Positions 1 to 3,691 of a DNA stretch of 64,000 bases are shown one piece after another. Origin of the DNA: Spirochaetota bacterium (GTDB lineage Bacteria; Spirochaetota; Brachyspiria; Brachyspirales; JACRPF01). A model generated the notes under the pieces. It was not told the origin of the DNA and did no database searches. It was given only the letters and a program-made list of their open reading frames with translations. A program made the position numbers and the translations under genes. Position 1 is the first letter of the stretch. Each line of letters starts with the position of its first letter. Location: the NCBI GenBank assembly GCA_016214035.1, contig JACRPF010000011.1, positions 1 through 64,000 on the forward strand, read 5' to 3'.

Positions 1-2
1 AT

Positions 3-95
3 GTACTGCTTGGAAGATTCGATCTCGAGAAGAATCGCATTATTGATATTATGGAACGAGTATCAGCAGTATCAAGGAGGCAGAAATTTCTGTAA
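3..95 (+). CDS. 3' end of an unidentified ORF cut by the window edge
   Basis: An open frame enters from the left edge and stops at the TAA at 93-95, giving about 30 residues ending VSRRQKFL. The stop lies inside the first of two direct repeats that look like an insertion-sequence end, so this could be the tail of a transposase reading into its own terminus. The fragment is too short to identify; the other forward frames are also open for part of this stretch. Confidence 0.25.
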   Translation, partial: VLLGRFDLEKNRIIDIMERVSAVSRRQKFL

Positions 96-135
96 CCCAT
101 GTACCCGGACTAAAGTGTAACCTATGTTCCCGGAT
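91..135. repeat. Two 20-bp direct repeats, possible insertion-sequence terminus
   Basis: Positions 91-110 and 116-135 are near-identical (TGTAACCcATGTaCCCGGA against TGTAACCtATGTtCCCGGA), spaced 25 bp start to start. Tandem motifs of this form are common at insertion-sequence ends where transposase binds. The opposite end would lie outside the window, so the element cannot be confirmed. Confidence 0.35.
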
Positions 136-149
136 TATACCAATATTCG

Positions 150-209
150 GCCTAACAAGCGCCTGGAGCCGTCACGCGAGTACGCGCGCGGCTCAGGCTA
201 CTGTTGGGC
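150..209 (+). other. attC site 1
   Basis: The inverse core GCCTAAC (150-156) and core GTTGGGC (203-209) are perfectly complementary. The inner arms GGAGCCG and CGGCTC pair, and CGCG-AGTA-CGCG forms the apical hairpin. The apical stem differs in sequence from the other four sites yet keeps its pairing, which supports selection on the folded strand. It is the last site of a cassette lying mostly left of the window. Confidence 0.9.
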
Positions 210-231
210 GTCATAATTAGGAGAAAACAAT

Positions 232-717
232 ATGAAATATGTCTTTATGGTATTTACAATTACATTTCTGACAACTTTAACTGGTTGTGTTACAGCAAAT
301 ATTAAACAATACAGCAATGACGAAAACCATAATAAAATAAAAAAAGCATTTCTAAAATGTTATCCTGTTAATAAAAAAATAGTATATCCTGAAGGAAAAG
401 AAATCAATACAAGAATAACTGAAATTGGCGAATACAAGTATATGCATATACAATATCCAATTGAATATATAAATAATAATTATATAAACATTTTATATCG
501 ATTTATAGAAAGCGAAAATGGATATACATATCTAGGATATGAAATTGTAAATACAAATATAGATAATCAAGAAAATCAAAATCAATATCGCACTTCAAGG
601 TTATTTAATATCATCTGTTCACTTAATACGAATTCATACAATGCAATATTATGTTTGCCGAATATATTTGAAAAAGAAAAAAATGCCGACCAACAAGCGG
701 CTAGAGCCGTCAAATGA
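232..717 (+). CDS. Cassette 1: small putative lipoprotein, unknown function
   Basis: This 161-aa protein starts with a basic residue and a hydrophobic segment ending in LTGC, a lipobox that predicts lipid attachment at about Cys19 and an envelope location. The rest is Asn/Lys/Tyr-rich with no family I recognise. An AGGAG sequence (219-223) precedes the ATG. The frame runs into attC site 2 and takes its TGA stop (715-717) from the conserved ATGAGTAC of that site, so the last residues (about AARAVK) are encoded by attC. Base composition is very AT-rich, as usual for cassette genes of foreign origin. Confidence 0.75.
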   Translation: MKYVFMVFTITFLTTLTGCVTANIKQYSNDENHNKIKKAFLKCYPVNKKIVYPEGKEINTRITEIGEYKYMHIQYPIEYINNNYINILYRFIESENGYTYLGYEIVNTNIDNQENQNQYRTSRLFNIICSLNTNSYNAILCLPNIFEKEKNADQQAARAVK

Positions 718-747
718 GTACATTTGCGGCTCAGCCTACTGTTATGT
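688..747 (+). other. attC site 2
   Basis: The inverse core is GACCAAC (688-694) and the core GTTATGT (741-747), exactly 60 bp end to end. The arms GAGCCG and CGGCTC pair and the apical hairpin is AAATG-AGTA-CATTT. The inverse core belongs to cassette 1 (whose start is TTGGGC, one mismatch) and the TTATGT belongs to cassette 2. Confidence 0.9.
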
Positions 748-780
748 GGGCGAAGAAAATATAGAAATATGGAGATTTGA

Positions 781-1626
781 ATGATAAAATATATATTAGT
801 ACTCGCATTTATTGCAACATCCGTTTTATATTCAGCAAGTAATGACAATCAAATATCTCTTAATGGTTTTTATTTATTGCAAACAAAGAATGCAGTAACA
901 AACATTTTCGGCAATGCCCCAACTGCTCATGGAATAAATAAGTATTCAACCTGGGATTTATATGCATATGATAATAATTCATATATTGTCTTTGAATATT
1001 TAACCAATAATCCAAATTATATTTATAGCTTACAACTTACGGGTTATGAAAATAAAAATATGTACCTATTTAAGGGTTGTCGCCTTGGTGATTCAAAATA
1101 TGCCGTTTTGGCAAAAATTGGTAAACCAGACAATATTAAACATATTCGTGATAAATTATACGCTTATGACTATACAAATAGAAATTACAGCATCGAATTT
1201 AATCAAGATAAGTTATATAGCATAAGAATTCAATGCTATAAAGAGCTTGACAATGCAAAGATATCACCGTTTGATTGGCAAGGATTTAAAGATGTGTTAA
1301 TTAGTAAAAATATTAAAAAAATAAAAGAATATCTTCGACCAGATTTCGAGATATTTAAAGGAAGTGATTTGCTATCTGTCAAAGGTCCATTTGAAAGTTT
1401 TAAGATAACTACTGGCGATGAATATTATAATATTTTATTTGTTAATCGCGATAGCGTTTTATCAGAAATCATATCAAATGATAAGCCAGAAAGTGCATTA
1501 CGTATAATAATGGGTGTTGGTATTGGAATTGTTTATAAATTTAAAAAAGACGATGCTCTTCAGGAAATAGTTTTATTCCCATACAATAATAAATATAGAG
1601 TATTTGAGATTAAATATAAAAAATAA
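781..1626 (+). CDS. Cassette 2: secreted protein of unknown function
   Basis: This 281-aa protein has an N-terminal hydrophobic segment of about 19 residues ending near YSAS, which predicts export by the general secretion route. The mature part is rich in Asn, Lys, Tyr and Ile and matches no family I recognise. A GGAG sequence (771-774) lies just before the ATG. It is the only gene of the cassette at 742-1685 and stops just before attC site 3. Its AT-rich composition resembles the neighbouring cassettes and differs from the chromosome. Confidence 0.75.
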   Translation: MIKYILVLAFIATSVLYSASNDNQISLNGFYLLQTKNAVTNIFGNAPTAHGINKYSTWDLYAYDNNSYIVFEYLTNNPNYIYSLQLTGYENKNMYLFKGCRLGDSKYAVLAKIGKPDNIKHIRDKLYAYDYTNRNYSIEFNQDKLYSIRIQCYKELDNAKISPFDWQGFKDVLISKNIKKIKEYLRPDFEIFKGSDLLSVKGPFESFKITTGDEYYNILFVNRDSVLSEIISNDKPESALRIIMGVGIGIVYKFKKDDALQEIVLFPYNNKYRVFEIKYKK

Positions 1627-1631
1627 TGCCC

Positions 1632-1691
1632 ACATAACAGGCGGCTGGAGCCGTCAAATGAGTACATTTGCGGTTCAGTCTGCTGTCAGAC
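1632..1691 (+). other. attC site 3
   Basis: The inverse core ACATAAC (1632-1638) is complementary to the TTATGT that starts cassette 2, and the core GTCAGAC (1685-1691) starts cassette 3. Sixty bp long, with the same AAATG-AGTA-CATTT apical hairpin. One arm carries CGGTTC instead of CGGCTC, still able to pair through G-T. Confidence 0.9.
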
Positions 1692-1711
1692 AGCATTGAG
1701 AGGAATAACGT

Positions 1712-2263
1712 ATGAAATGTGCATTTGCGTATCTTGTAAGTAGTGAAATACATAACTATATCAGGAAAAAGGCAATTGAAATAGACAAATACATCAACAA
1801 TGGTTTTTATGCAGCCCAATTACCGCCGCATGTATCATTAAAGCAGCCATTCAAAATAGATGATTTAGCTCAAGTAGAAAAATTCTTTGACAGATTATCA
1901 TCAGAAATGGCTCCTGTTGAAATTGAATTCAGATCATTATATAGATTTGCCAATGGAATATTTCTTGATGTATGCAACCAAAGCACATTAATGGAAATAC
2001 ATAAAGAATTAAACAGAAGGCTTGAGCATGAATTTAAAGATACAAAAGCAGCGCATGACGGCGACAAATATCACTTCCATGCGACTATTGCCCTTCAAGG
2101 AAGTGATATGGATAATTATAAAAATGTATTCGAAAAGGTGAATGATAATAACGTGAATCTAAAATACCTGGCATCAGAAATGGTAATGTTTTATTATAGT
2201 GATGATAACTACAGTGCAGGATCATTTATTACGTATAAAATTAATAAATTAGGGAAAAAATAA
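1712..2263 (+). CDS. Cassette 3: 2H phosphodiesterase family (2'-5' RNA ligase-like)
   Basis: This 183-aa protein carries the two H-x-S/T motifs that define the 2H phosphoesterase superfamily: PPHVSLKQPF near residue 38 and YHFHATIAL near residue 122. The family opens 2',3'-cyclic phosphates or 2'-5' linkages in RNA, nucleotides or ADP-ribose cyclic phosphate; the natural substrate here is unknown. No signal peptide is seen, so it is probably cytoplasmic. A GAGAGG sequence (1697-1702) serves as ribosome-binding site. It is the only gene of the cassette at 1686-2321, directly before attC site 4, and is followed by two more phosphoester-cleaving cassettes. Confidence 0.8.
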   Translation: MKCAFAYLVSSEIHNYIRKKAIEIDKYINNGFYAAQLPPHVSLKQPFKIDDLAQVEKFFDRLSSEMAPVEIEFRSLYRFANGIFLDVCNQSTLMEIHKELNRRLEHEFKDTKAAHDGDKYHFHATIALQGSDMDNYKNVFEKVNDNNVNLKYLASEMVMFYYSDDNYSAGSFITYKINKLGKK

Positions 2264-2267
2264 TGCA

Positions 2268-2327
2268 GTCTGACAAGCGGCTGAATCCGTCACATGAGTA
2301 CATTTGCGGCTCATTATTCTGTCATGC
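2268..2327 (+). other. attC site 4
   Basis: The inverse core GTCTGAC (2268-2274) is a perfect partner for the TCAGAC that starts cassette 3; the core GTCATGC (2321-2327) starts cassette 4. Sixty bp, apical hairpin ACATG-AGTA-CATTT. The outer arm (GGCTGAATCC) is more diverged than in sites 2 and 3. Confidence 0.88.
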
Positions 2328-2394
2328 GAAGTTAAGATGTCAGTTTATATACAATAATGAATATGATGCTCTTCAAACTATTATTGACTGACAT

Positions 2395-3156
2395 ATGAAA
2401 ATTGCACTCATTTCAGATATTCACGGCAATCTTCAAGCACTTCAAGCTGTTATCCAGGATATTGATAGAAATGCTATACAATCAATTATTTGTCTTGGCG
2501 ATATCATCAGTATGGGACTGCAACCAGGTGAAGTCATAACTATGCTGCAAAGTATACATTGCAGTTTTATTCTCGGCAATCATGATGAACCATTTATTGA
2601 TTTTTCGCAGATGGGAATGTTAAGTGTCATCTCCGAGGAGGTATTTATTTCAAATAAATGGACATTAGGGCACATATCGGAACCGCAACGTGAGTTTATC
2701 CGTACATTTAAGTCCTCAGTAAAACTGCAGGATGCACGAGGCAGAAAAATATATTGTTTCCACGGTACACCAAAACATAATTATGAAGGAATATCCCCGG
2801 ATACTGACGATGACAGCATTCATGTATATCTTGATGAATGCAATGATGATATATTTGTATGCGGGCATACACACAGGCAAATGAGAAGAGAATTTAATGG
2901 AAAGATTATAATTAATCCCGGAAGTGTAGGAAGTGTTTTTAATGAATCATGCTCAAAAGGGAATGGAACTGCACTTCAACCATGGGCGGAATACGGAATA
3001 TTAGATTTATCAAAAAATAATGTTTCATTCGAAATGGAAAAAATACCATTTAATATCAGTCAATTGCAATCAGTAATTGATAACACAGATCATCCGTATA
3101 AAGAGTGGTGGAAAAACCAATATTTTGCACACCGGGAGTCTGGAGCCGTCACATGA
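2395..3156 (+). CDS. Cassette 4: calcineurin-like metallophosphoesterase
   Basis: This 253-aa protein has the ordered metal-binding motifs of the superfamily: SDIHGN (residues 7-12), a GD in the CLGDI segment, GNHDE and a late GHTHR. The family hydrolyses phosphomonoesters or phosphodiesters with two metal ions; the single-domain form resembles YfcE or diadenosine-tetraphosphatase relatives, but substrate cannot be read from sequence. It has no signal peptide. The frame runs into attC site 5 and takes its TGA from it, so the terminal GAVT is attC-encoded. No strong ribosome-binding site is visible before 2395, which is odd for a cassette gene. Confidence 0.85.
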   Translation: MKIALISDIHGNLQALQAVIQDIDRNAIQSIICLGDIISMGLQPGEVITMLQSIHCSFILGNHDEPFIDFSQMGMLSVISEEVFISNKWTLGHISEPQREFIRTFKSSVKLQDARGRKIYCFHGTPKHNYEGISPDTDDDSIHVYLDECNDDIFVCGHTHRQMRREFNGKIIINPGSVGSVFNESCSKGNGTALQPWAEYGILDLSKNNVSFEMEKIPFNISQLQSVIDNTDHPYKEWWKNQYFAHRESGAVT

Positions 3157-3186
3157 GTACATTTGCCGCGCAGTACAGTGTACTGC
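3127..3186 (+). other. attC site 5, degenerate
   Basis: The conserved centre (CCGTCACATGAGTACATTTG) and the 60-bp spacing are kept, and the core is GTACTGC (3180-3186). The inverse core is GCACACC where the start of cassette 4 predicts GCATGAC, so the RYYYAAC consensus including its AAC is broken. Arm pairing is also weaker (GCCGCGC in place of GCGGCTC). The site is probably poorly recombinogenic. Confidence 0.75.
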
Positions 3187-3259: not shown

Positions 3260-3691
3260 ATGAAACGTGCGCAGTGTTTTATAGTCAGAGAGAATAAAAT
3301 ATTAATGGTACAGCAAAAGGATAATGATACATCAATCTGGCTGCTGCCCGGAGGGAGAATAGAAGAGCATGAATCGCCGGAACAAGCGGCATTACGCGAG
3401 TTGCATGAAGAATGTAATGTTGCCGGTACTATAGTGCGAATGATCAGCTTTAATGACTATAGTGATGCATATCAGGAATATACATACCATGTGGACATCG
3501 GCAGCAGTACAATATCACAAGGCAGTGACCCTGAAAAAGCAGATCAGGAAATAATGGATGTGCAGTGGAAAGATATTTCGGAATTGACAGAAATGGAACG
3601 CGGACTGTTATGGTCTTCAGGCCTATTGGCGTTTATGGAAATTATAAATGATTACGAAGAGCATAAAAAAACACAAAACAGACCGCTGTAG
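3260..3691 (+). CDS. Cassette 5: Nudix hydrolase
   Basis: This 143-aa protein contains a complete Nudix box starting at the GGRIEEHES segment and ending RELHEEC, fitting G-x5-E-x7-REUxEE with Cys in place of the late Gly. The family cleaves nucleoside diphosphates linked to another group, such as oxidised dNTPs, ADP-ribose or dinucleoside polyphosphates. It is a single-domain protein of usual length with no signal peptide. A GTAGGAG sequence (3244-3250) precedes the ATG. It follows attC site 5, but no further attC is recognisable downstream, so it may be the last cassette or a cassette whose end has decayed. Confidence 0.85.
   Translation: MKRAQCFIVRENKILMVQQKDNDTSIWLLPGGRIEEHESPEQAALRELHEECNVAGTIVRMISFNDYSDAYQEYTYHVDIGSSTISQGSDPEKADQEIMDVQWKDISELTEMERGLLWSSGLLAFMEIINDYEEHKKTQNRPL

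Follow-up and report, generated by a model that had tools for sequence, protein, structure and literature searches.

Evidence for the distal end of a sedentary chromosomal integron in a spirochaete outside Treponema

The five 60-bp sites that lie between positions 150 and 3186 of the DNA studied here are, with near certainty, attC sites at the distal end of a sedentary chromosomal integron in a spirochaete outside Treponema. The window, by which we mean the whole 64,000-nucleotide stretch that was analyzed, starts at base 1 of contig JACRPF010000011.1 (contig C7) in a genome (G000) of 5.2 Mb and 22 contigs. An initial annotation had proposed an integron cassette array and suggested looking for intI; the gene was found on another contig, C16, with seven more attC sites, the last of them cut by the contig end. 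The annotation had named the lack of an IntI-type recombinase, and of other such sites beside varied genes, as grounds for rejecting an integron, and both were found in this genome. Its guess of a spirochaete host fits the relatives, the phylum set including Treponemataceae.

The attC sites of the window and their cassettes

The features at the left end of the window are as follows; E values are from the covariance model described below, and z scores refer to folding of the bottom strand.

1-141, + strand: end of an IS481-like element (transposase C-terminus and terminal repeats) at the left edge of C7
150-209, + strand: attC site 1, R'' GCCTAAC, R' GTTGGGC, loop CGCGAGTACGCG; E = 6e-32, z = -4.4
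204-694, + strand: cassette 1, with a gene at 232-717 for a putative lipoprotein of 161 aa whose stop is the TGA in the loop of site 2
688-747, + strand: attC site 2, loop AAATGAGTACATTT; E = 3e-27, z = -5.1
742-1638, + strand: cassette 2, with a gene at 781-1626 for a secreted-looking protein of 281 aa; outer arms match
1632-1691, + strand: attC site 3, R' GTCAGAC (GTC replaces GTT); E = 2e-22, z = -3.5
1686-2274, + strand: cassette 3, with a gene at 1712-2263 for a 183-aa protein of the 2H phosphoesterase/2'-5' RNA ligase family (PF13563, E = 2e-16)
2268-2327, + strand: attC site 4, R'' GTCTGAC, R' GTCATGC; E = 2e-14, z = -0.5
2322-3133, + strand: cassette 4, with a gene at 2395-3156 for a YfcE-like metallophosphoesterase of 253 aa (PF12850, E = 4e-23; TIGR00040 above cut-off) whose stop is the TGA in the loop of site 5
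3127-3186, + strand: attC site 5, decayed, R'' GCACACC, R' GTGTACT; core only, E = 1e-5, z = -1.4
3260-3691, + strand: NUDIX gene past the last site (PF00293, E = 2e-17)

All five sites that had been annotated were recovered at their positions and are 60 bp long. The core pattern, with up to three mismatches allowed, matched eight times in the 64-kb window, compared to 0.69 matches expected; the five sites have zero or one mismatch, and the other three matches, with two or three, look like chance. Circularity was avoided by training the covariance model on only the six attC sites of C16. This model recovered sites 1 to 4, and in site 5 it detected the core alone (model positions 14-47). Sites 1 and 2, like the C16 sites, combine R''/R' boxes of the form RYYYAAC/GTTRRRY with an imperfect bottom-strand hairpin; the hairpins of sites 1 and 2 are textbook-like, and one side of each leaves two single bases unpaired. 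Site 3 has a GTC and folds less well, site 4, with GTC boxes, does not fold significantly, and site 5 has neither the boxes nor a significant fold. The claim that all five sites share their boxes thus stands for sites 1 to 4 and fails for site 5, in which the boxes have decayed. Site 5 closes the recognizable array. In both sites 3 and 4, R' starts with GTC rather than GTT, and cassette 3 has TCAGAC at its start and GTCTGAC at its end, a compensated change of the usually fixed GTT crossover triplet.

The covariation of the stem that had been reported from the window was borne out in an alignment of 24 rows from two genomes, this one and a family relative (G001). Nine pairs were changed on both sides, with recurring double changes (A-T to C-G and C-G to G-C), and 91.8% of stem cells were paired (90.9% after one truncated and two reverse-strand rows were left out), compared to 24 to 43% in a slid control; pairing far exceeded that in slid and shuffled controls. 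The inner loop is almost invariant in the two genomes, reading AGTA and once TGTA.

We then compared the arms of each cassette, that is, the bases past the crossover G and the reverse complement of the bases preceding the end of the next R''. Over the eleven cassettes of the two contigs, 90 of 110 bases matched, compared to 44 expected when cassettes were shuffled, and none of 200,000 shuffles reached this value. In cassettes 2 to 7 and 9 (numbered from intI across both contigs), 11 or 12 bases matched unbroken. In the window, the matching of box pairs within each cassette that the initial annotation described holds for cassette 2 (11 consecutive bases) and cassette 3 (12/14), holds in part for cassette 1 (TTGGGC versus TTGGTC), and fails for cassette 4, which has the decayed site 5 at its end and a 1-base match. 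Each site in the array takes its two arms from different cassettes, and a past circle explains why the arms of one cassette match. Circular excision and insertion leave just this footprint, and the borders of these cassettes are consistent with it.

All eleven cassettes lie in one orientation and have varied contents: six carry different genes, and five lack an open reading frame (ORF). The six genes encode two putative lipoproteins, a small membrane-looking protein, the 281-aa secreted-looking protein, which has no Pfam or NCBIfam match, the 2H phosphoesterase, and the YfcE-like phosphoesterase. No resistance gene was seen among the cassette genes that were read. Cassette G+C content is 23 to 35%, compared to 54% in the neighboring backbone. 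The NUDIX gene past site 5 has a start that overlaps (ATGA) the stop of a frame opening in the site 5 loop. It gave the single clear PADLOC match, to a candidate model, and we take this as NUDIX homology only.

The integrase locus and the extent of the array

The integrase locus lies near the end of C16, within locus L040 (C16:284000-291413).

C16:286828-287766, - strand: intI, TIGR02249
L040 2808-4151, - strand: IntI with the extra N-terminal residues
L040 4314-4623, 4677-4999, 5053-5371, 5425-5743, and 7061-7378: ORF-less cassettes, 46-54% A

IntI scored 375 to 380 bits against TIGR02249, which has a cut-off of 265, and intI is the single gene of the genome above the cut-off of this family of IntI-type tyrosine recombinases. 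Among solved structures, its best match is Vibrio IntI4 (2a3v; E = 4e-65, with a nearly full-length alignment). The alignment shows conservation of R229, K254, H360, R363, H386, and Y395, which we take to be the catalytic residues of a tyrosine recombinase. About 90 extra N-terminal residues duplicate the SAM-like core-binding domain (hhalign, 97%); this extra domain is common to the IntI proteins of some Desulfobacterales and Thermodesulfovibrionales and one Spirochaetaceae metagenome-assembled genome (MAG).

The layout is divergent, with intI on the minus strand and every attC on the plus strand. The six complete sites and the truncated one lie beyond the start of intI, and C16 terminates 3.6 kb past intI, inside an attC (C16:291413). 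A candidate attI, G^TTAGGA at L040:4314, matches the end of the first cassette (TCCTAAC). Transcription may start at TTGACA-17-TACATT (L040:4231-4259), ahead of this candidate attI, although the region has no significant excess of promoter-like matches (24, compared to 17.3 +/- 4.3 by chance). The putative attI and promoter both sit between intI and the cassettes. The start of the first cassette, L040 4313-4327 (TTAGGAGCCGTCA), has the 10-mer GGAGCCGTCA in common with the attC core and is possibly an attC remnant.

Between the C16 sites lie two different coding genes and the family of ORF-less cassettes; a long gene is absent from five of the seven C16 cassettes. Among these five, four have bodies that are 81 to 82% alike and attC inner parts that are nearly identical. 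All five have a 14- to 15-bp inverted repeat flanking ~130 to 200 bases of A-rich sequence, and the repeat of cassette 1 differs in sequence from that of the others. The copies share a pair resembling TTGAAT-17-TAGAAT, although such pairs are common in AT-rich DNA here. No further copies of the four diverged cassettes were found in the rest of the genome or in G001, and Rfam searches of L040 and of locus L179 of G001 returned nothing. Across the order, DNA matches of an ORF-less cassette outside this integron were short and AT rich, and we judged them to be chance.

Both C16 and C7 end in or beside an array. The C16 array exits at the contig end away from intI, and the C7 array, oriented alike relative to its cassettes, begins at a contig end; we therefore take them as one integron. 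We infer a single array of at least twelve sites that was split in assembly, with no read or contig joining the two parts. The left edge of the window carries the insertion sequence: window positions 1-141 are identical to C17:1-141 and 88% like the opposite end, C17:1275-1322. A complete IS481-like element lies at the end of C17 (positions 1-1322 of L198, G000:C17:1-3000), and its 141 terminal bases are the start of the window. Its 397-aa transposase scored 202 bits against NF033577 (IS481), below the cut-off of 224; an IS21 identity was dropped when profile comparison gave an IS481-like element. The shared 141 bases are likely an assembly junction. A plasmid search using the left edge of the window found nothing.

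Two other readings of the sites bear on this interpretation. The C7 array could be a CALIN, an attC cluster without an integrase that was displaced from the intI array by an IS481-like insertion or rearrangement. Site 1 begins 9 bases past the IS481-like end, C17 may adjoin C7 on the left, given the 141 edge bases that they have in common, and G001 likewise has solitary sites within contigs. However, the arrays on C16 and C7 are on the same strand and of the same attC family, a model-wide search found no other convincing site of this family in the genome beyond the ends of these two contigs, and an insertion sequence sitting inside one array would give the same picture. We consider a displaced cluster rather improbable. 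The sites are also short and palindromic and belong to a single sequence family, as would be the case for a dispersed structured repeat (REP or MITE-like) that merely resembles attC. Such a repeat is so improbable as to be virtually negligible: IntI adjoins other copies, and the sites occur in one orientation throughout and at two contig ends only. Moreover, the arm matching is cassette specific, which we count, together with IntI, as refuting the repeat.

In a sedentary chromosomal integron, IntI would bind the folded bottom strand of attC and would cut in the R' box at G^TT (here, G^TC too). A cassette would be excised as a circle and then inserted at attI or at another attC. New cassettes would enter beside intI and push older ones away, so the window would hold the old end of the array, closed by a decayed attC. 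IntI presumably still recombines these cassettes today. A mobile (class 1 to 3) integron was rejected: the contigs are long and chromosomal looking, there is no resistance family, and IntI falls below the NF011946 cut-off.

Stop and start codons in the attC loop

Seven genes run into an attC, four in this genome and two in G001 ending at a TGA in the attC loop and one running through. The loop-TGA gene ends lie in the following sites.

Window 688-747 and 3127-3186
L040 6293-6352 and 7008-7067
L179 2082-2138 and L181 2113-2172 (G001)

These genes have tails such as ..QAAGAVK, and the same letters contain an overlapping start codon in another frame. A split of cassettes by loop variant, with six coding cassettes having the TGA and five ORF-less cassettes lacking it, was broken by a coding cassette of G001 without TGA (L179:1500); moreover, four of the five ORF-less cassettes duplicate one another.

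It is conceivable, though unlikely, that the loop RTGA also couples translation, with TGA ending one gene and ATG or GTG starting a short frame toward the next. In that reading, the short frame would span the crossover point and stop near the next start codon, which we likewise think unlikely. In class 1 integrons, ORF-11 of attI1 and short frames of attC span the crossover, stop close to where the next gene starts, and are thought to aid its translation, and re-initiation at short frames in attC has been reported (PMC8876359). In contrast to class 1, the start codon here would lie in the attC loop of most coding cassettes. At 12 of 13 junctions, the crossing frame stopped no more than ~20 nt from the start of the next gene, compared to 9.0 expected (P = 0.009, with distance limits that were set after the data were seen), and four junctions are exact ATGA overlaps. 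However, tight overlaps in this frame numbered 6, compared to 4.2 expected (P = 0.13), and another frame gave 6, compared to 2.5 (P = 0.004). The hairpin alone may also account for the conserved loop letters, and neither the stop nor the start codon occurs in the CGCG variants.

The more general design, in which attC of this lineage would be a translation hand-off part besides a recombination site, would combine a fixed 60-bp length, overlapping stop and start codons, and tuned leaders. The fixed length would hold one reading frame constant over each crossover, and the cassette leaders would make the crossing frame end close to the next start codon. If so, any captured cassette would be translationally coupled to its new neighbor. 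Since the stricter count fell short of significance and a different frame does equally well on it, we rate this design low, marginally below the coupling itself. Termination and re-initiation in attC have already been described (PMC8876359), so a hand-off, even if true, would be a variant.

Distribution and comparison with known integrons

The initial annotation had noted integrons as known in Treponema denticola and this attC family as noteworthy; in the phylum, integrons are not rare, with IntI matches in 58 of the 393 Spirochaetota genomes searched and in 32 of the 168 genera sampled. Among the same 393 genomes, strong matches of the attC family were confined to this genome and G001; four single weak matches elsewhere resemble, by sequence, attC sites of other types. 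Both IntI and the attC family are absent from the remaining 29 genomes of the order, and a search of IMG/VR viral contigs for the attC cores gave no exact match. In G001 (L178-L184), an IntI of its own lies at a contig end, and ten related attC sites are spread over six contigs; some are well inside contigs and may be solitary attC cassettes. The attC family is lineage specific, and the integron is typically oriented and lies outside Treponema.

A 2013 survey found integrons among spirochaetes in the Treponema clade only and with an atypical layout, intI being transcribed toward attI, in the direction of the cassettes (PMC3607928). Against that view, we find a non-Treponema lineage with a typical integron and its own attC family. 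The breadth of spirochaete integrons is of practical interest because spirochaete-type attC sites have been proposed as a source of aminoglycoside acetyltransferase resistance cassettes (PMC8352920).

The Treponema integrons (T. denticola, T. vincentii, and T. succinifaciens; PMC3607928) are of the same phylum and likewise have IntI and an array of attC sites of ~60 bp. The attC sites of T. denticola are 63 to 68 bp, and AAC/GTT boxes and a protruding G occur in both systems, as do ORF-less cassettes (PMC6557892). In contrast with Treponema, intI here diverges from the cassettes (intI on the minus strand, attC on the plus strand), which led us to reject a Treponema-type integron, and the attC sequences belong to another family. 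The IntI of this genome also has a different N-terminal extension and was placed by the tree, with that of G001, outside the main spirochaete clade, although a single spirochaete IntI clade was not rejected (p = 0.10), and we therefore do not claim a separate origin.

The IntI proteins with a double core-binding domain, from Thermodesulfovibrionales, Desulfobacterales, and Spirochaetaceae MAGs (L074, L075, L082, L087, and L108) and from Fibrobacter (L140), have the same extra N-terminal domain and are 33 to 44% identical to this one; no attC of the present family was found at their loci. The Vibrio superintegron (VchIntIA/IntI4, 2a3v) is alike in its IntI-type recombinase, divergent intI and array, and gene-less cassettes (PMC11014356); the integron described here differs from it in the ~90 extra N-terminal residues of IntI, the short array (12 sites found), and the attC sequence.
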